Position numbers and translations under genes: made by a program
Origin: Chloroherpeton thalassium ATCC 35110
Lineage (GTDB): Bacteria > Bacteroidota > Chlorobiia > Chlorobiales > Chloroherpetonaceae
Length of the DNA: 64,000 bases
Assembly: GCF_000020525.1 (NCBI RefSeq)
Contig: NC_011026.1
Span: 434,001-498,000, forward strand
Direction of reading: 5' to 3'
The notes under the pieces: generated by a model
The model's database searches: none
What the model was told of the DNA's origin: nothing
What the model saw: only the letters and a program-made list of their open reading frames with translations
In this document: one piece after another, positions 21,707-30,830 of the stretch
Layout of the letters: each line of letters opens with the position of its first letter
How positions within the stretch are numbered: position 1 is the stretch's first letter

Positions 21707-22999
21707 TCATACATTTTCTGATTGCAGTAGCGCTGGGAATGTTTTCAAAATAATTTGAATATCGAACCAAACGGAGCAATTCTGAGCGTAATGATTATCT
21801 AATGCGATTCGCTCTGCTTCAGACATATCAGACTTGCCTCGCTTTGTAACTTGCCAAAGCCCAGTGATGCCTGCCGGCGCCATGAACCGCTCTGTCCATG
21901 CATCTGTTGTCAGTTTTTCCGCTTCGTAAAGCGGCAAAGGCCGATTTCCAACAATGGAGATGTCGCCAATTAAAACATTTATCAACTGAGGCAATTCATC
22001 AATGCTTGTATTTCGAATAAAGCGACCAAATTTTGTAACCCTTGGATCGTCTTTAAACTTCATAAAAATGCCGGATTGTTTACTTTTCTGCAGATTGGCA
22101 TATTCGCTTTGAGTATAAATGACATTATCAGCAATGAATACGTCTTTGGCGTTTGCAATCGGCGCTAATATCGCTTCATCTTCCACTGCTTGATGAAATC
22201 CGTCATGAACACCGACCTTTTGTAGAACAGCCTCCTGATTCTGATACATATTCAGGTGCTTTAACTTCTCTATATTTTTATCAGCACCTGCTGCCATCGA
22301 ACGAAACTTGTATAAATCAAAAATTTGATACCCCATCCCTACACGTTTAGACTTGTAGAGAACCGGTCCTTTGGACTCAAGCTTAATTATCAACCCAACA
22401 ATGAAAAGCACTGGCGAAAGTAAAATGAGCGCCATAGCCGATGAAAAAATATCAAAAGCCCGCTTGAGAATAGGAATTTTATAGCTCTTAAAAACTTGCT
22501 TCTCTTCCGATTGCTTGAAGTTTTTGATTTGAAATAAATAGCTTAAGCGATAAGCCAGCGCATCTATTTCGATTGGCTTTACAAAAAAGTCATCGACGCC
22601 TTCTTTTAATAAAGCAATGCGTTCTGGTTTTGATAATTCAACTGTAGAAGTAAAAAGGAAAAGGGATTTTTTTAGACTACCGCTAGATTTAAGCAGATGC
22701 AAAAACTGCAGCTTGTTCATGTCTGTCAAAGTATATTCCGAGATGATAGCATCTGGAATATTTCCTGCTTGTAGCCACTTGAACACTTCATGGCAACTAC
22801 AAAATGCTGTTACAAGGAATCTACCTTGATGATTATTTTCAAATCCGGCTTGTAAGCTATTACATGCGTCTTTATCAGGGTCAATACATAGGATGTGGCG
22901 GATTTTTTTATCAGTACCCATTTCGTCTTTTGAGTTTGGGAGGTTTAACTCAAGGCTATTTGATAGAGACGACTCGAATTCTACTTTAGAGTTATTCAC
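21707..22999 (-). CDS. Receiver domain fused to initiating sugar (phosphoglycosyl) transferase
   Basis: 430 residues. Residues ~34-150 are a CheY-like receiver: HILCIDPDKD acidic pocket, IPDAIISEYTL in which Glu88 occupies the phospho-acceptor Asp position, FTSTVE, and Lys141 in FFVKPIE. Residues ~170-430 form a WcaJ/RfbP-type bacterial sugar transferase: a membrane hairpin (RAFDIFSSAMALILLSPVLF), KFRSMAAGAD, DELPQLINVLIGDISIVGNRPLP and PAGITGLWQVTKRGK. The enzyme loads the first sugar-phosphate on undecaprenyl phosphate. The fused receiver suggests signal-controlled initiation, yet the D-to-E change mimics a phosphorylated state. Confidence 0.92.
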   Translation of the reverse strand: MNNSKVEFESSLSNSLELNLPNSKDEMGTDKKIRHILCIDPDKDACNSLQAGFENNHQGRFLVTAFCSCHEVFKWLQAGNIPDAIISEYTLTDMNKLQFLHLLKSSGSLKKSLFLFTSTVELSKPERIALLKEGVDDFFVKPIEIDALAYRLSYLFQIKNFKQSEEKQVFKSYKIPILKRAFDIFSSAMALILLSPVLFIVGLIIKLESKGPVLYKSKRVGMGYQIFDLYKFRSMAAGADKNIEKLKHLNMYQNQEAVLQKVGVHDGFHQAVEDEAILAPIANAKDVFIADNVIYTQSEYANLQKSKQSGIFMKFKDDPRVTKFGRFIRNTSIDELPQLINVLIGDISIVGNRPLPLYEAEKLTTDAWTERFMAPAGITGLWQVTKRGKSDMSEAERIALDNHYAQNCSVWFDIQIILKTFPALLQSENV

Positions 23000-23030
23000 A
23001 AGTATAAATTTTTATACAAAGTGGCATTGG

Positions 23031-23408
23031 TCAGCTACCCACACGCCTAAAAATAGAGGAAATACGCGCTTTCAATTCTTCTGGATTAAAAGGCTTCACG
23101 ATAAAATCATCCGCACCAATATTTAAACACTTAATGCGGTCTTCACTTTTATCATTAGCTGATAGAACAACAATAGGGATGTCTTTGAAAAAGCCGCTGA
23201 CACGCACATTTTTGATAAATGAATATCCATCAACATTTGGCATATTGATGTCGACAATAACCAGATCTGGAATATTGCCTTGCTGCAACCAAAATAGAGC
23301 TTCATCTCCATCTTTTTTTGTGACAACATCATAAGATTTTGTCAAAATGAAAGATAAAATCTTAAGCATCGCAACTTCATCATCAACGACAAGAATTGTT
23401 TTTTTCAT
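23031..23408 (-). CDS. Single-domain response regulator (CheY-like)
   Basis: 125 residues comprising a complete receiver only. VVDDE acidic pair, Asp at PDLVIVDINMP, VVLSAND and FIVKPFN are intact, so it should be phosphorylatable. It lies 31 bp upstream of the receiver-sugar transferase fusion, and the two receivers share phrases (WLQ-GNIPD-). No histidine kinase is adjacent. It may relay a signal to the polysaccharide machinery or to motility. Confidence 0.93.
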   Translation of the reverse strand: MKKTILVVDDEVAMLKILSFILTKSYDVVTKKDGDEALFWLQQGNIPDLVIVDINMPNVDGYSFIKNVRVSGFFKDIPIVVLSANDKSEDRIKCLNIGADDFIVKPFNPEELKARISSIFRRVGS

Positions 23409-23663: not shown

Positions 23664-24512
23664 TCACACAGCAAACTTCGCTTCAAATGGATAGTCTTTC
23701 AGTGTGTTTTTGTAACATTCATACTCAAGAGGATTTTTCACAGCTGTTCGCCCTAAAGCCATTTGATAAACAGGCTTTCCCTCGTATGCTTCTAACGTAG
23801 TTGCATCAAACAAGTACAAATGTTCCCCTTTCACATTCTGCTGAATAGCTTTTGTCCCATAGTATTTTCTTAAAAAGACATACCTTGATGAAAAAATTAA
23901 CGTGCTCAATTCATCATCATAATACAACGATAACGGATTTAAGTGCTTTGCAACCAAGAGTTTATGAGGAGTGCGACGGTCGCAAGAAAGAAAAGTGAGC
24001 TGACCTTTCAAAAGCTGCAGTTTTGATTGAACTTTTGGAAGAGTCTTTTCCGTAATGCCATCTCTGGAATATCGCTCGATATAGCGAAAAATAATTTCGC
24101 TGTCAACTTCACCTGTTCTTGTGCAACCACACTCAGCAAACTGCTGCTCATCATTTTCAACCTGACCGTTGTGAATGCCAAGGATTGCACCCGTCACAAT
24201 CGGATGATTGTTATGATGGCAAAGGACATCGCCTTTGGTAGGCCTCCGAGTATGACCTAAAATGACGACGGTATTGCTATCGATTTTTTCCAACAATTTT
24301 GCGTAGCGTTCGGAATCCACAAAATCTGAAGCCGATACAGGCTGCTTTTCAATGAAAGCTTCCCCATCTTTTTGAATTATAGCAACGCCTGTGGCTTCTT
24401 TACCACGCTCTTCATTTGCAAGTAAATTCTTTGTAAGAAGATTTCTAATTTCTGCAAGAGCGCTCTCATTTCTTTGACGGGGATATAATAACATCGAAGC
24501 AATTCCACACAT
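23664..24512 (-). CDS. Stand-alone class II glutamine amidotransferase
   Basis: 282 residues beginning MCGIASMLLY, so Cys2 becomes the N-terminal nucleophile. Other GATase II (Ntn-hydrolase) signatures are GHTRRPTKGDV, HHNNHPIV and LGIHNGQVENDEQ. It would release ammonia from glutamine. There is no synthetase or isomerase domain as in AsnB, GlmS or PurF, so it must serve a separate partner. The putative amidoligase at 25957 is the obvious candidate in the neighbourhood. A hairpin at 24685-24710 lies between it and the upstream GT9 gene, so it may be transcribed separately. Confidence 0.88.
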   Translation of the reverse strand: MCGIASMLLYPRQRNESALAEIRNLLTKNLLANEERGKEATGVAIIQKDGEAFIEKQPVSASDFVDSERYAKLLEKIDSNTVVILGHTRRPTKGDVLCHHNNHPIVTGAILGIHNGQVENDEQQFAECGCTRTGEVDSEIIFRYIERYSRDGITEKTLPKVQSKLQLLKGQLTFLSCDRRTPHKLLVAKHLNPLSLYYDDELSTLIFSSRYVFLRKYYGTKAIQQNVKGEHLYLFDATTLEAYEGKPVYQMALGRTAVKNPLEYECYKNTLKDYPFEAKFAV

Positions 24513-24710: not shown

Positions 24711-25892
24711 TTATTTTGCTCGCTTTTTAAGTAACATTTCTGCCTGTTCTACAATTTCTTCCGGCGTAATCATATTCAAACAATAAGGCCGCTTAAAATC
24801 TTTTGTTTGAGTAGATTCTTCAACCATGCAATGGTTTTCACGACAGGGTGCGCACGGCAAAGCCACCTTTAGAACTTTCGCATTCGGATTTTGATAAGGG
24901 CCAAACTCAATGCTGTCTGTGGCACCGAAAAGAACAATGTGATTGAGTTTTAAAGCAGAGGCCATATGAGAAACGCCACTGTCATTTGAAATGAGAAGTG
25001 CTGATTGCTTAAGCAATTGTGTGGATTCAAGCAGGGTTAAATCACCGCATAAATTAATGATGTTTTTACCATCACAGAGAGCCATCTTATCAACATAATC
25101 ACGCTCCCCTTTTGAACCGATCATTACAAATCTGCGCTTAGGATTATTTTCTCTAAGTAACCTTATGGTTTGAACAAACTTTTCCGGAGGCGCTGTTTTT
25201 ATTGCTGCGTCAGGTTTGACACCACCACCTGCAGAAGGCGCAATCGCAATAAATTCATGCTCATCACACCATCCCAGCGATTGAAAGATTTCATCTATTC
25301 TATTTTTTTCAACGTCGGAAAGAAAAATTTCTAATCCGGTCGTTTCTGCCTGCACATTATAATTTGGATGAAGCCGTCGCAACATTTCCAAGTAAAGCTG
25401 CGCCACATGCCGTTTTCTTGGAATTTCTTTCAGATCGATATACACATAATCACTTAGCATAAAATTGCTTAGCCCTATCACCCCGTATGCAACGGTATCA
25501 AATCCGATTTTATAGGTATTCCTGAAGAGAAGAAGCGCTGCTTTGTAAATCAGTTGTGTTGTTGGACTGAAAACGATATCATAATTTTTTTTTGCAAGCT
25601 CAGAAAAAAATGACAGCCTTTTTTTGAGCAAATCCATTTTGCTTCCAAAAATCAATTCATTGCTAACTTGATAAACACGATCGATATTTGAATTGTGTGC
25701 TAAAATGCTACTTGCCCAATCAACCACAACATATTCTATCGTGGCTTTAGGGTATAACTTTCTTAATTGTTTTAAAAATGGGGTAATTAAAATGACGTCG
25801 CCTATTGCAGCTTCTCTAATCACGAGAATCTTTTTTGGCTCATCTGGCGGATTGGTGTTTGTAAAAAACAGCCTAAGAAACTTCCAAATCAT
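24711..25892 (-). CDS. Glycosyltransferase family 9 (heptosyltransferase-like)
   Basis: 393 residues. The GT9 pattern is clear: ILVIREAAIGDVILITPFLKQLRKLYP near the start, IAIAPSAGGGVKP for the donor domain, LISNDSGVSHMASALKLNHIVLFGATD and the end APCRENHCMV with a Cys-rich stretch. The family transfers heptose or other sugars to LPS cores or glycan acceptors. It follows the amidoligase gene by 64 bp and is probably co-transcribed. In green sulfur bacteria the acceptor could be a lipid A core or a surface glycan. That part is inference. Confidence 0.9.
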   Translation of the reverse strand: MIWKFLRLFFTNTNPPDEPKKILVIREAAIGDVILITPFLKQLRKLYPKATIEYVVVDWASSILAHNSNIDRVYQVSNELIFGSKMDLLKKRLSFFSELAKKNYDIVFSPTTQLIYKAALLLFRNTYKIGFDTVAYGVIGLSNFMLSDYVYIDLKEIPRKRHVAQLYLEMLRRLHPNYNVQAETTGLEIFLSDVEKNRIDEIFQSLGWCDEHEFIAIAPSAGGGVKPDAAIKTAPPEKFVQTIRLLRENNPKRRFVMIGSKGERDYVDKMALCDGKNIINLCGDLTLLESTQLLKQSALLISNDSGVSHMASALKLNHIVLFGATDSIEFGPYQNPNAKVLKVALPCAPCRENHCMVEESTQTKDFKRPYCLNMITPEEIVEQAEMLLKKRAK

Positions 25893-25956: not shown

Positions 25957-27249
25957 TCAACTTGTAAAAGTCATAGTCCCTTTTTGATTATCCCAACGCA
26001 ATTCGCGAAATTCTTGGATTTTTTTAATCCGTTTTTCAATATCGCCTGGCGATAGCAAAAGCTCTTTTGCAACATGACTTTCCCAGTGTTGTTGAGATAA
26101 TTGTTTTGTCCATTCACACAGTTCAATCCCTAACATAAGCCGACGCTCTACTTTTTCAAAATCAAAATCCATCAGCTTGACTTTTTGATGCAAGCGCTGC
26201 TCTATTGTTGGCCAATCATAACCAGCACAACGCATTAACGAAATAGGTTGATCAGCCAATGCTTGTAGCACTTCAAATGCCTGATTATGATTAAACCGTT
26301 GAAACAATGATTGAAGAAGCTCTAACAGTTCATTAGCCCCGTTTCGTAATTCAGAAACCACCTCGTCCGAAACACCTGAAGTATCACTCGTGGCCAAGTC
26401 ACCATCATTATTGCTTAATAGGTTTAATATTTCCTGCTTTCTTCTCCATTGCTTTATCTTTCCAACATGGATCACCCCAAATTGGCTTAAGTTCACCGCC
26501 TTAAGTAACAATGCTAAAAAAAGAAAACTAAATGCAGTAACAGCAGATGCAGAAAGTGTTGCATCTGGGAATCTATATTCAAGATGAAGCGGCAAAATGG
26601 AACCTGATTCTACAAAACCGAGATGCTGTATGTTAAAAAAGTTTTGATGCTCAGGAACAATTTTACTTTTTTTAAGCTGCTCATAAATATCTTTCATCGT
26701 CATCGTTGCTGGCGAGTGTCTCACCATTTCAAGATGACTGTTGTGATTTCTACGGCGGCATAACGCCTCGCGCTTATCACCTGTACTTGTTAAATACTTT
26801 AATTCAGGAGCATATCGGCGAACGAGATTCCACAGATTTGCCATGATAATTTCAGGGACAGGCTCTGCTAAACCTGGAGTCAGAAGGTGAAAATGCAACC
26901 CGCATGTTGATTTAACGCGCCCACCATTTAAGGTGATCACCTGCATAATTTGATTATACTGCTTCTGAAGCGCTCTAAAACTCGGATGCCTTCCAATTAC
27001 TCTGATTTCTATTCCGCAATGCTCAGTTTGTACATCCAAAACACCGTTAGGACCTAACCGCTCAAAACTGCCCGACGGCTCTAATGCACTGCGAATTGCA
27101 TCTTCAAAAACTGGTCTACGAACCCCTGATGGAGTTGCAACTTCAATTTCTGTCCCGATTTTTGATGCCCGATAAAGTAAATCTTTCCAATATTGCGCTT
27201 CAACTGGCGATAAAATATCATCTCGCCTTAAAATAATTGGGTCTTGCAT
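25957..27249 (-). CDS. Putative amidoligase (COOH-NH2 ligase, Amidoligase_2-like)
   Basis: 430 residues. The motif set I connect with amidoligases is present in order: GTEIEV (32-37, GxExE), STCGLHFHL (114-122, GxHxH) and LEYRFPDATLS (223-233, ExR..D.T). The C-terminal ~190 residues are helical, with a charged coiled-coil feel. The family, related to the glutamine-synthetase fold, is predicted to form amide or peptide bonds with ATP. Here it sits between a protoglobin sensor and a GT9, with a class II glutamine amidotransferase close by. The substrate is unknown. I assign the family from motifs only. Confidence 0.68.
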   Translation of the reverse strand: MQDPIILRRDDILSPVEAQYWKDLLYRASKIGTEIEVATPSGVRRPVFEDAIRSALEPSGSFERLGPNGVLDVQTEHCGIEIRVIGRHPSFRALQKQYNQIMQVITLNGGRVKSTCGLHFHLLTPGLAEPVPEIIMANLWNLVRRYAPELKYLTSTGDKREALCRRRNHNSHLEMVRHSPATMTMKDIYEQLKKSKIVPEHQNFFNIQHLGFVESGSILPLHLEYRFPDATLSASAVTAFSFLFLALLLKAVNLSQFGVIHVGKIKQWRRKQEILNLLSNNDGDLATSDTSGVSDEVVSELRNGANELLELLQSLFQRFNHNQAFEVLQALADQPISLMRCAGYDWPTIEQRLHQKVKLMDFDFEKVERRLMLGIELCEWTKQLSQQHWESHVAKELLLSPGDIEKRIKKIQEFRELRWDNQKGTMTFTS

Positions 27250-27296: not shown

Positions 27297-27848
27297 CTAT
27301 TCTACATCATCTTGAGTCAAAATCCGGCGCGCCAGCATCTCATTTCCTACCATTTTAGCCAAGTGCTTCAACTGTGTGCTTTCATAGGCTTGGTTAAAAA
27401 TCGCAATATCTAACGCCGCTAACTTCCGAAAAGCACTTGATGCAATTTCTGGCTGAGATGACTGCAGCGCAGCTTTTTGACCATATTCCATAATAACATC
27501 CATCATAGCTAATGGATAACGAACAGGCAGCCCTATACGAACATGCACCTTGCCAATTTGTAACCTTGACTTGACGTATTTATCATTGTAGTCACCAGTG
27601 AACAACTCCAAAAACCACCCTTTTAAGGTTTCACGCATTCTTTCAATTTTATCACTGAGATATTCAGAAGTATTCTCATGGCTAAGAAGTCTGTCATAAA
27701 AGGCATTAATCATTTCGCCAACAATACTTTCCGCCTGAGACCGCATTTCTCCGAGAACTTTCTTCTCTTCTTCTGTCATGCGCGTCATCGCAAGGAGTTC
27801 TTCCAAAATGGCTTCGTCTTTTATAACCCAGCTTTTACGCTCTTCCAT
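27297..27848 (-). CDS. Protoglobin-type haem sensor domain protein
   Basis: 183 residues. Residues ~15-165 read as a protoglobin/globin-sensor domain. RLQIGKVHVRIGLPVRYPLAMMDVI contains the likely proximal His102 and the family's conserved GLP-RYPLAM stretch. No output domain is fused, so it should act by protein contact or by gas binding. The start has CGGAGAT upstream at good spacing. It lies 47 bp before the amidoligase gene and 166 bp after the CPIMNAC protein gene. Protoglobin sensors bind O2, CO or NO. In an anaerobic phototroph, oxygen avoidance is a plausible use. Confidence 0.86.
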   Translation of the reverse strand: MEERKSWVIKDEAILEELLAMTRMTEEEKKVLGEMRSQAESIVGEMINAFYDRLLSHENTSEYLSDKIERMRETLKGWFLELFTGDYNDKYVKSRLQIGKVHVRIGLPVRYPLAMMDVIMEYGQKAALQSSQPEIASSAFRKLAALDIAIFNQAYESTQLKHLAKMVGNEMLARRILTQDDVE

Positions 27849-27918
27849 GGATATTATCTCCGATTTGTGTTTTTTGTAATTTGGTGTCTTAAGGGGGCTC
27901 GCTGTAATTCATAATACT

Positions 27919-27942
27919 TTTTGAGACGCTAAGATCTCAAAA
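27919..27942 (-). terminator. TTTTGAGA/TCTCAAAA hairpin between sensor genes
   Basis: An 8-bp stem with an 8-nt loop lies in the 166-bp gap downstream of the 28015 gene, followed on the minus strand by a few A/T. It may terminate the roadblock operon in part, or cap the mRNA of the protoglobin gene. The GC content is too low for a strong call. Confidence 0.35.
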
Positions 27943-28014
27943 GTCTTCACGCTCTACGAGACCCCTGAAAATATGCGAGACCGCGAACCATTCAAATAGT
28001 ATTTTATCTAAAAG

Positions 28015-28491
28015 TTACGCAACCCGCTCAAAAGTAATAATAGATCCACCGCCTTCATGCCACTTATGAACTTCTTCACGCATTTTATACCCTAATCGCC
28101 GCAATCCTGCTTGGCATGCGTTCATAATAGGACAAATAAAAGGCTTCTCAACCCCTGCTGCATCAAGACGGTCGCTAAATTTACGATTAATACATTGACG
28201 AACTTTAAGCGTTATAAGAGTATCGTCGTCCCCTTCCACTTCAATGTCAGAAGCATAACCAAACTCATCAACGAAAATACGGGAAACTTCCATTATAACT
28301 TCTTTTGGAGTATGGCCAGCAATTTCAAGCCCCATCTCCTTTTCCATTACACGCAGCAGTTCATCGCCCATTAACCCGCTGTATGAAAACGCTGATTCGC
28401 CCAAAGTTTCCCACACAGCTTGAGCTAAGCTTGTTAGAGCCATACTAGTAAGGCGCAGCTGATTTTGTTTCTTTTGTTCTTCGCTTGCCAT
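28015..28491 (-). CDS. Cys-containing sensor-like protein of the MglA cluster, family not identified
   Basis: About 158 residues from ATG 28491. The frame is open to 28548, but the extra residues are not convincing. Helical N-terminal half; then an alpha/beta part with VEGDDDTLITLKVRQCINRKFSD and KPFICPIMNACQAGLRRLGYKM, ending in beta strands (GGGSIITFERVA). The spaced cysteines (C...CPIMNAC) resemble metal-binding output/sensor domains such as V4R- or MetOD1-type folds, but I cannot assign one. It ends the roadblock-MglA gene set, 66 bp from the DUF4388-roadblock gene, so a role in the same switch is likely. Confidence 0.72.
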   Translation of the reverse strand: MASEEQKKQNQLRLTSMALTSLAQAVWETLGESAFSYSGLMGDELLRVMEKEMGLEIAGHTPKEVIMEVSRIFVDEFGYASDIEVEGDDDTLITLKVRQCINRKFSDRLDAAGVEKPFICPIMNACQAGLRRLGYKMREEVHKWHEGGGSIITFERVA

Positions 28492-28557
28492 TAAATACCA
28501 ATTCTTTAAGTTTATTTTTGAACTAAACATTTTAAAAGGACAGTGCAAGCACAGTCA

Positions 28558-29274
28558 TCAAACAAGATCGCGAAGTCTACTTGCAAAGTCACGGACTTCC
28601 GCAAAGGCCATTCCTAAATTCACTCCGTGTGCAGTTAAGCCAATTAAGAGTGTTCTATCATTTAAGCCTGCAACAATAACATTTCCGTTATCTCCTTGAA
28701 TCAAAGTTTGAGAAAACGTGCCTCTTTTAAGCTGCTGAACACTTCTCTTGCTTAATCCAAGAATTGCAGCGGAAACCGCCCCAACCATATTTTCATCCAG
28801 TCCTTTGTCTGGGACGTTCGCAGAATAAACAAGCCCATCGGTACCAACGATTGCTGCTCCTTGAATGTCGGTAGATTGTTGCAGAAGTTCTTGCAGGGCT
28901 TCAGCAATGATTTCGCCTTTCTTCTTTACCATAGTTTTTTCTACAGGTTTAGTTACAGGTTGATTTGTAGATGAAGACTCATCTAAAAGTTGGGCACCAT
29001 GTAAAAGCAATCCTTTCCATGAGCGCTCAATGGTTTTAAATGAAGGCTCCGTATCCATATCAAGATTAAAAGTCCCCTCATTCCACGCTAAAATGTTAAA
29101 TACAACTTGCTCACCGACAATGTCACCCATTGTTGCATGAACCACGTTTCCATCTTTCAGAAACAGTTCAGCTTCCTGCCCATCGTTATTGAGTGTTATT
29201 TTCGCAGTTTTATGATCTTCACAATAGTGCTGAATTAAGTCTGCGACACTCATATGCTTTATATCACCTTGCAT
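28558..29274 (-). CDS. DUF4388 (PATAN)-roadblock/LC7 protein
   Basis: 238 residues. Residues 1-~95 match the DUF4388/PATAN pattern (GDIKHMSVADLIQHYCEDHKTAKI..., LKDGNVVHATMGDIVGEQVVFNILAWNEGTF). A Ser/Thr-rich linker follows. Residues ~120-238 are a roadblock/LC7 domain (GAAIVGTDGLVYSANVP, AILGLSKRSVQQLKRG, TLLIGLTAHGVNLGMAF). Roadblock proteins regulate small GTPases, and PATAN domains occur in signalling adaptors for twitching and gliding. It is 23 bp downstream of a second roadblock gene. Confidence 0.88.
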   Translation of the reverse strand: MQGDIKHMSVADLIQHYCEDHKTAKITLNNDGQEAELFLKDGNVVHATMGDIVGEQVVFNILAWNEGTFNLDMDTEPSFKTIERSWKGLLLHGAQLLDESSSTNQPVTKPVEKTMVKKKGEIIAEALQELLQQSTDIQGAAIVGTDGLVYSANVPDKGLDENMVGAVSAAILGLSKRSVQQLKRGTFSQTLIQGDNGNVIVAGLNDRTLLIGLTAHGVNLGMAFAEVRDFASRLRDLV

Positions 29275-29297
29275 ATCGCTTAACTCGATTTTTATTT

Positions 29298-29699
29298 TTA
29301 AAGCTTCCAGACACGTTGAATTGATTTAATAGAGTGATTCATTAGGCTCCTGTAGGACTGATGCTTATCCGGTATTTGCAACGCAAGAATAAGCTCATAA
29401 TTTTTCACTCTAAATGTTCTACTGACAAGCCGGCACCCTTCTTCATCAAACAAGCAAACCTCGTCCGTTTGTCCCATCCCTAAATGGTTCTTTACTTGTA
29501 TTGCTGTTTTTTGAACCATAGCAACAACTGCTGCCTGGCGCTCAGGATCATACCCTTCAGTTGTTGCATATGCTATTGGAAACCCTTGTAAATCAGTTAA
29601 AACCGAGATTGCAAACGAACCTTTTTCGTTCATTTCAGCTAATATTTTTGTGAGCTCGGCTGAACCGGTTTTTGTATAGGTATTTTTGTTAGGCACCAT
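29298..29699 (-). CDS. Roadblock/LC7-like protein
   Basis: 133 residues. A single domain with the roadblock order: SAELTKILAEMNEKGSFAISVLTDLQGFPIAYATTEG, then VAMVQKTAIQVKNHLG, DEVCLFDEEGCRLVSRTF and ELILALQIPDKHQSYR. This is a MglB-type GAP/scaffold fold. It sits 9 bp after mglA, the usual position of a GTPase partner. An AGGATAAAT-like sequence precedes the start. Confidence 0.82.
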   Translation of the reverse strand: MVPNKNTYTKTGSAELTKILAEMNEKGSFAISVLTDLQGFPIAYATTEGYDPERQAAVVAMVQKTAIQVKNHLGMGQTDEVCLFDEEGCRLVSRTFRVKNYELILALQIPDKHQSYRSLMNHSIKSIQRVWKL

Positions 29700-29708
29700 T
29701 TATCCTTT

Positions 29709-30299
29709 CTAAGCATATAATTCTTGCTGAACTCGTGCGACTACCACTTGAGTAATCGCTTTTAACGTCTCAAAAACTCCAATATTTTTTACCGCTACAG
29801 CCTCATAAGTTCGATAGCCAGTTACGCCTAACTTTCTTTTTAAGACTTCTGGCGGAACAGGGTATGGCAAATCTCTTTTATTTAATTGAATAACGATCGG
29901 AAAGTCATCAGTATATAGTTGTAACGAGGATAACTGAGACTTTAAATTATGCCAAGAATCAATATTATCAGTTAATCTTGTTGGGGAAGAATCAGCCACA
30001 AAAACAACCCCATCAGCTCTCCGAAGTACCATCTTTCGGGTTGCTTCATAATACGTTTGTCCAGGAACTGTATATAAATTTAATTTGGGAGTGAGGCCAC
30101 CTATTTTTCCAAGCTCAAGCTGAAAAAAGTCGAAGTATAATGTTCTGTCCTCTCTGTTTTTTAAAGAGAGCAACTTCCCTTTTCTTCCTGGATCCACATG
30201 GGCATGAACTTGCTCTAAATTAGTGGTCTTTCCACTTAAGGCAGGCCCATAATACACGATCTTTAAATTCAGTTCTTTTCTTTCCCAGTTAATTTGCAT
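29709..30299 (-). CDS. mglA: MglA-type small GTPase
   Basis: 196 residues covering a complete Ras-like domain. P-loop GPALSGKT (18-25); the conserved long loop KGKLLSLKNREDRTLYFDFFQ; TVPGQ (77-81) in place of the usual DxxG, as in MglA; guanine motif NKRD (140-143). MglA sets polarity and drives gliding or pilus switching in Myxococcus and Thermus, with MglB roadblock proteins as GAPs. Here three roadblock genes flank it, suggesting an expanded regulator set. Spacing is 3 bp to the upstream roadblock gene. Confidence 0.95.
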   Translation of the reverse strand: MQINWERKELNLKIVYYGPALSGKTTNLEQVHAHVDPGRKGKLLSLKNREDRTLYFDFFQLELGKIGGLTPKLNLYTVPGQTYYEATRKMVLRRADGVVFVADSSPTRLTDNIDSWHNLKSQLSSLQLYTDDFPIVIQLNKRDLPYPVPPEVLKRKLGVTGYRTYEAVAVKNIGVFETLKAITQVVVARVQQELYA

Positions 30300-30302
30300 T
30301 TC

Positions 30303-30830
30303 TTACCCTTTCCATAATGCGTCTAATGAATCACCTATTTGGTCAGAGAGATTTGTTGGATCACCTAATAGGTCTAATTTTTTAGCGTCAGGAATTTGCT
30401 CTGCATCACTTGACTCTTGATAATCGCTCTCTTGACAATTATCGTCAATTTTTTTTGCAGCTTCCTGAATTAACATTCTTGCCCAGCCCAGTGGAACACT
30501 TTTATCTAACTGCACCAAAATTGCAAAATCAGGACCTGCGCCTGCCATAAAAGTATTGGCAGATAGACCTTCATGCAAAACAAGTTGGTACTCTTGTTCT
30601 CCACCAAGCATTTGGGCAACTTCTTGAGCAGCGGAAAGCCCGCCAGCCATAACTGAGCCTAATGCAATCAAATCAAACTGAGAACTTGGGCCACATGCAG
30701 AAACAACTTGGCCACTGACATCAGTTAATAAAATAAATTTAGCAGGGGCCTTTTGCAACAAATTTTCTAAGACTTGCTCAAACTTTTTATGCTGAGATGA
30801 GTCGATCGAAATTCCACTTCTTAATCTCAT
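30303..30830 (-). CDS. Roadblock/LC7 protein with acidic tail
   Basis: 175 residues. Residues ~15-125 form a roadblock domain (FEQVLENLLQKAPAKFILLTDVSGQVVSACGPS, DLIALGSVMAGGLSAAQEVAQMLGG, DFAILVQLDKSVPLGWARMLI). The last ~50 residues are acidic and probably disordered (ESDYQESSDAEQIPD...). It is the first gene of the MglA operon, 3 bp before mglA, and is the most likely MglB-like GAP. Confidence 0.88.
   Translation of the reverse strand: MRLRSGISIDSSQHKKFEQVLENLLQKAPAKFILLTDVSGQVVSACGPSSQFDLIALGSVMAGGLSAAQEVAQMLGGEQEYQLVLHEGLSANTFMAGAGPDFAILVQLDKSVPLGWARMLIQEAAKKIDDNCQESDYQESSDAEQIPDAKKLDLLGDPTNLSDQIGDSLDALWKG

Follow-up and report, generated by a model that had tools for sequence, protein, structure and literature searches.

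Chloroherpeton thalassium ATCC 35110 is a gliding anaerobic phototroph (PMC9318685), and its genome is a single contig of 3,293,456 bases. A 64,000-nt stretch of that contig (NC_011026.1, positions 434,001 to 498,000 of the forward strand; here called the window) places a protoglobin gene beside an MglA-family small GTPase and three roadblock proteins, which raises the question of whether globin and GTPase form one regulatory unit. We assign a probability of about 0.6 to the reading that this block is a globin-gated roadblock/small-GTPase switch. The original prediction had placed six genes in this order, all on the minus strand: RbA, MglA2, RbB, a DUF4388-roadblock protein, the CPIM (CPIMNAC) protein and the protoglobin. 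The order, strand and coordinates proved correct. We observed that the conserved block extends further, down to position 23664, and also includes a 430-aa protein and a class II glutamine amidotransferase-like protein (GATase). The features, in order along the minus strand, are as follows.

30303 to 30830, minus: RbA, MglB-like roadblock protein, 175 aa, candidate GTPase-activating protein/guanine nucleotide exchange factor (GAP/GEF) for MglA2 (Robl_LC7 and MglB matches)
29709 to 30299, minus: MglA2, MglA-family small GTPase, divergent paralogue (match to Thermus thermophilus MglA, intact residues, separate clade)
29298 to 29699, minus: RbB, small roadblock protein, 133 aa (sister orthologue over the Pfam cut-off)
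28558 to 29274, minus: DUF4388-roadblock fusion protein, 238 aa (PF14332 and PF03259)
28015 to 28491, minus: CPIM protein, 158 aa, predicted TRAPPC3/V4R/H-NOX-like fold (conservation, model, Foldseek)
27849 to 28014, minus: spacer of 166 nt with an imperfect hairpin, preceding the globin (fold z −2.3)
27297 to 27848, minus: single-domain protoglobin, 183 aa, proximal His102 and Tyr51 (PF11563)
25957 to 27249, minus: 430-aa conserved protein (orthologue at the equivalent place in the sister locus)
24711 to 25892, minus: heptosyltransferase-like gene (PF01075, 84 bits)
23664 to 24512, minus: GATase, final gene of the conserved block (PF13522, 48.8 bits)

We searched for the CPIM protein and the globin in all genomes of a class sample of 98. 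Each was found in 2 of the 98, C. thalassium and the metagenome-assembled genome (MAG) Chloroherpetonaceae PL23b_bin.36 (locus L005; hereafter the sister), the sole other genome of the same family compared; both were absent from the other 96. The sister carries eight genes in collinear order (RbA, MglA2, RbB, DUF4388-roadblock, CPIM, globin, 430-aa protein, GATase), and the pairs of block proteins compared were 58-77% identical. The synteny of protoglobin with mglA is thus kept in the relative, and the proximal His is conserved, so that neither refuting condition set by the original prediction arose. A locus search for the block across genome contigs recovered only this known sister. The 430-aa protein occurred in only C. 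thalassium and the sister (2 of 385 genomes of a phylum sample), as did MglA2-type GTPases in the same sample, where the next best match had 49% identity.

The protoglobin matched Pfam PF11563 at 127.7 bits (cut-off 25). It has the protoglobin fold, with the proximal His in HVRIG and the distal-side Tyr in FY; His102 and Tyr51 align with those of solved sensor globins, and both are invariant in the five globins linked to roadblock genes. The protein is predicted to bind haem and a diatomic gas. The protoglobin has no fused output domain. It has instead a short conserved C-terminal tail (QLKHLAKMVGNEMLARRILTQDD), with GTPase regulators encoded in the operon. We observed a tail consensus common to the five linked globins, (Q)LxHLAxxxGxExLARRxLT, and the proximal His and tail were invariant or near-invariant in 5/5. 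Twelve other single-domain globins of the phylum sample stop at the globin domain, without the tail, and two multidomain globins have unrelated sequence at its position.

The pairing recurs outside the family. We surveyed 394 sampled genomes of the phylum and found protoglobins in 16, four of which (the two Chloroherpetonaceae, G343 and G388) had Pfam-detected roadblocks. Pfam-detected roadblocks lay less than 1 kb from globins of the C. thalassium subfamily in both G343 cases and in the single G388 case. These linked globins were 48-53% identical to the C. thalassium globin over the whole length and shared its tail. The gene order at loci L047 and L048 was roadblock, small GTPase, globin; a GTPase adjoined the globin at 2 of the 3 G343/G388 loci and was of a different type from MglA2. 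The Deinococcota (Thermus and Deinococcus) were compared through plasmid sequences only. DUF4388, small GTPase, roadblock and protoglobin genes stood together on plasmids of Thermus brockianus GE-1, T. thermophilus SNM1-7 and T. oshimai JL-2, in the order DUF4388, GTPase, roadblock, globin; DUF4388 and roadblock are separate genes of the same operon in Thermus and one fused protein in C. thalassium. The T. brockianus GE-1 operon has three globin genes. In the T. brockianus pTB1 operon, the middle globin of three (L057:5049-5645) has lost the proximal His (YL instead of HV), is a marginal protoglobin by hidden Markov model (HMM) and is possibly haem-free.

Most Thermus globins grouped apart from the linked globins of Bacteroidota in a tree that forced at least two label changes; long branches (Tbro2, Tlr1989) make its deep order unsafe, and we used only the Thermus/Bacteroidota separation. 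Because of this separation, the globin-roadblock/GTPase pairing probably had more than one origin. The gene order in C. thalassium is more than chance, since it has persisted while the proteins diverged to 58-77% identity, and globins adjoin roadblock genes in other genomes too. A third GTPase-roadblock cluster of the C. thalassium genome (L018; G000:C1:647601-649213) has no globin; identity between the GTPase of this cluster and the globin-adjacent Thermus plasmid GTPase is 41%.

The GTPase residues of the block are also intact. MglA2 matched T. thermophilus MglA (3t12) at 203 bits (E 3e-59) and Myxococcus xanthus MglA at 179 bits. It keeps the P-loop GPALSGKTT, R52/T53 (intrinsic Arg), T77 (Thr of G3) and Q81 (catalytic Gln). 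MglA2 was about 74-75% identical to its sister orthologue and 46% identical to MglA1, the canonical MglA of the same genome, of which it is a long-branched paralogue in a separate clade (support 100/100). RbA, its MglB homologue, is encoded 3 nt upstream, and the gaps from RbA through MglA2 and RbB to the DUF4388-roadblock gene are 3 to 23 nt. RbA scored 30.6 bits for Robl_LC7 and 51.5 bits (E 1.3e-12) against M. xanthus MglB, and its sister orthologue was 60% identical. RbB was below the Robl_LC7 threshold in C. thalassium (E 0.048); we call it a roadblock protein because its sister orthologue (61% identical) passed the cut-off (29 bits, E 9e-7). The DUF4388-roadblock protein matched PF14332 (DUF4388) at 70.4 bits and PF03259 (Robl_LC7) at 50.6 bits, and its roadblock domain has relatives among the roadblocks encoded in the Thermus and f34 (G388) globin operons.

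The CPIM protein was described in the original prediction as an unassigned Cys sensor. The ATG at 28491, conserved in the sister, is the true start codon, and the conserved residues of the two sequences include C100, C120, C126 and H145, the last being the only conserved His and lying near the C-terminus. HMM searches gave no family match, and we found no sequence relative outside the family; a weak match in G176 (E 0.009) was dismissed, its frame being broken by stops. An AlphaFold2 model built from a two-row alignment had a predicted local distance difference test score (pLDDT) of 72.6, with core blocks mostly at 80-92. Foldseek matched this model to TRAPPC3 (E 2e-4, probability 1.0, template modelling (TM) score about 0.5) and to H-NOX (E 9e-4). 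A TRAPPC3/V4R/H-NOX-like fold is likely on this moderate-confidence model; V4R domains share a fold with Bet3 (PMC2253512). At the sequence level we did not observe a Pfam V4R match, and an hhalign comparison with XylR was not significant (Neff 1.2). We rejected an H-NOX identity; the YxSxR haem motif is absent. For this protein a predicted fold has been gained, and its role as a sensor is only putative.

The 430-aa protein has a 58% identical orthologue at the equivalent place in the sister locus, followed directly by the GATase orthologue. In C. thalassium only, an inserted heptosyltransferase gene separates the 430-aa gene from the GATase gene; the sister block is without it. A model of the 430-aa protein failed to fold (pLDDT 43). 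We set aside an amidoligase identity for it, a faint motif impression with no HMM match and no PDB relative, and a literature search on amidoligase-GATase-roadblock neighbourhoods found none. The spacer before the globin is about 59 nt in the sister, so that the 166-nt spacer of C. thalassium is ~107 nt longer. This spacer, with its strong imperfect hairpin, may be an inserted palindromic element; searches with it returned no Rfam match, no repeat family and no second copy within the window. Directly downstream of the block (window positions 21707-23408) lie a receiver protein and a receiver-fused sugar transferase, adjoining exopolysaccharide-type genes.

Gene content, conserved order, intact haem-ligand and GTPase residues and the recurrent pairing are established; from these we infer haem binding, physical contacts, direction of control and output of the proposed globin-gated switch along the following lines. 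The protoglobin would bind a diatomic gas, most likely O2 and possibly NO or CO. Ligand binding would alter the docking of the conserved globin tail on one of the roadblock proteins, with the DUF4388 fusion as the most likely partner, and the changed docking would shift the GTP/GDP state of MglA2, with RbA, the MglB homologue, as the likely GAP/GEF. The TRAPPC3/V4R-like CPIM protein may provide a second ligand input or act as a scaffold of the roadblock-GTPase complex. Outputs could include cell polarity or gliding, or surface or cyclic di-GMP-type responses.

Several observations weigh against the switch. The same-order anchor is one relative genome. Outside the family, the globin-adjacent GTPase belongs to a different subfamily, and at the f34 locus L046 we observed a roadblock, the globin and a further roadblock-like frame, with no GTPase beside the globin. 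The plasmid set of T. brockianus SNM4-1 is without an annotated roadblock between GTPase and globin. Three Deinococcus plasmids examined carry the GTPase-roadblock core without a globin, and the globin is therefore an add-on, not a required part of that core. Control of the GTPase could also operate without the globin.

The possible outputs and the TRAPP-like comparison below overlap as refinements of the switch and are not all mutually exclusive. Tentatively, and at less than even odds, the output may lie outside motility, in envelope or exopolysaccharide functions, in the modification of proteins or metabolites, carried out by the 430-aa protein and the GATase, or in second-messenger turnover. 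The 430-aa protein and the GATase are conserved members of the block, the next downstream genes in C. thalassium encode a receiver and a receiver-sugar transferase, and an EAL gene directly follows the globin in GE-1, SNM4-1 and JL-2 (three of four Thermus megaplasmids). However, the 430-aa protein matches no family and its fold prediction failed, and the block membership of the sugar-transferase genes is not evident in the relative, where the contig ends.

The original prediction suggested a direct switch from oxygen (or NO) to motility for oxygen avoidance, acting without chemotaxis receptors; in this reading the globin would directly steer gliding or pilus polarity controlled by MglA2. In its favour, gliding and strict anaerobiosis are both traits of C. 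thalassium (PMC9318685), polarity in Myxococcus is under the control of MglA/MglB (PMC4316618), and the catalytic residues of MglA2 are intact. We nevertheless consider this output unlikely. The canonical MglA1, at 2.84 Mb, has near-identical orthologues across the non-Chlorobiaceae families of the order, and about 12 kb from it we observed two roadblocks, a methyl-accepting chemotaxis protein (MCP), a CheA-like protein of 2455 aa and two proteins resembling CheW. Because MglA1 is conserved and lies near this chemosensory cluster, it is the likelier motility GTPase. That MglA2 drives motility is a guess, since MglA1, not MglA2, is conserved in the order's non-Chlorobiaceae members without protoglobin, among them the f3 and f4 genomes, which have MglA1 and no MglA2. 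MglA2 is also on a long branch, and in the analogous Thermus operons the next gene is an EAL gene. The genome has two MCPs, one in the cluster near MglA1 and the other at 2.95 Mb. The haem-globin sensor tied to roadblock/small-GTPase regulators thus holds up, being syntenic, retaining its His and recurring elsewhere, and the claim that chemotaxis receptors are lacking was wrong for this genome.

Three further observations concern these genes. The CheA-like 2455-aa protein (L064:9524-16891) has several histidine phosphotransfer (Hpt)-like segments, a receiver and near-identical ~26-residue tandem repeats (ELQLPALEDDLEISSPEQAFSDSPAD). The second MCP locus (L066:6760-12943) encodes a CheW-like protein and a protein with, by eye, a DUF4388-like N-terminus and a receiver. 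A lone divergent MglA (L075; G057:C120:1409-1999) occurs in a Chlorobiaceae MAG of 82% completeness and could be contamination.

It is improbable, on our estimate, that the CPIM protein is a TRAPPC3/V4R-like subunit that forms, with the roadblocks, a globin-modulated GEF platform for MglA2. The 50 best PDB fold matches of the CPIM model were all TRAPP subunits or H-NOX (E 2e-4 to 0.02, TM 0.43-0.53), and TRAPP activates Rabs via Bet3 and longin subunits in a geometry like that of MglA/MglB (PMC10933270). However, the model came from two sequences with TM scores of about 0.5, a sequence-level V4R match is absent, and we saw no CPIM-type protein in the Thermus or f34 operons. We would give still lower odds to a broader proposal, a gas-gated TRAPP-like nucleotide-exchange assembly in which a TRAPPC3/V4R-fold subunit and roadblocks set the state of a Ras-like GTPase under the gate of a haem globin, the pairing being a signalling class that recurs and was put together repeatedly around different GTPases. 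A loose stress-gene operon, with a globin that acts as a scavenger of O2 or NO and has no more than a promoter in common with the GTPase module, is very doubtful: the spacer ahead of the globin would fit it, as would the redox activity that protoglobins can show with reactive nitrogen species (PMC4020757), but globin-roadblock/GTPase adjacency recurs in separate lineages and the tail is specific to linked globins.

How does the proposed switch compare with known systems? Closest to it is HGbRL of Methylacidiphilum infernorum, which likewise ties a haem globin to a roadblock domain (PMC4476040). HGbRL is one fused protein with an HGbI/Vitreoscilla-type globin, whereas C. thalassium has a separate protoglobin in a GTPase operon; the M. 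infernorum genome has its MglA-like/roadblock gene pair elsewhere (PMC4476040). The MglA/MglB polarity modules of M. xanthus and T. thermophilus share an MglA-family GTPase with an adjacent MglB homologue and intrinsic catalytic residues. Unlike them, the C. thalassium block has three roadblocks, a protoglobin, a DUF4388 fusion and a TRAPPC3-like protein, with a second, canonical MglA elsewhere. Actinobacterial conservons (CvnABCD) are also operons of sensor, roadblock and small GTPase, but their sensor is histidine-kinase-like and that of C. thalassium is a haem globin; no CvnA-like histidine kinase gene was found in the six-gene block or beside it. The Thermus and f34 GTPases have many Streptomyces homologues on plasmids, and MglA2 has none there. 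A predicted TRAPPC3-like fold, roadblock/longin-type platforms and a Ras-like GTPase co-occur as in the TRAPP complex (TRAPPC3/Bet3, longin subunits, Rab GTPase), although sequence similarity was undetected and the resemblance is one of parts lists (PMC10933270). A survey of prokaryotic small GTPases reported PATAN-domain genes near some MglA genes and did not mention globins (PMC4316618), and among the papers available to our literature search none joined protoglobin, roadblock and MglA.

These data indicate that the block is a real, conserved module, which we read as an MglA/roadblock system with a haem-globin input. Its recurrence and its TRAPPC3-like member add interest beyond the original prediction, and the motility claim is weaker than was stated there. 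Membership of the TRAPPC3-like protein in the complex, if confirmed, would also bear on the origin of TRAPP-type GTPase regulators. One question is how bacterial MglA/roadblock switches receive their signals where there is no Frz-type chemosensory pathway; with a conserved haem-sensor/switch operon and Thermus parallels amenable to genetics, control of Ras-like GTPases by gases can be tested directly. The occurrence of a similar pairing in other phyla suggests a recurring way to wire gas sensing to a molecular switch.

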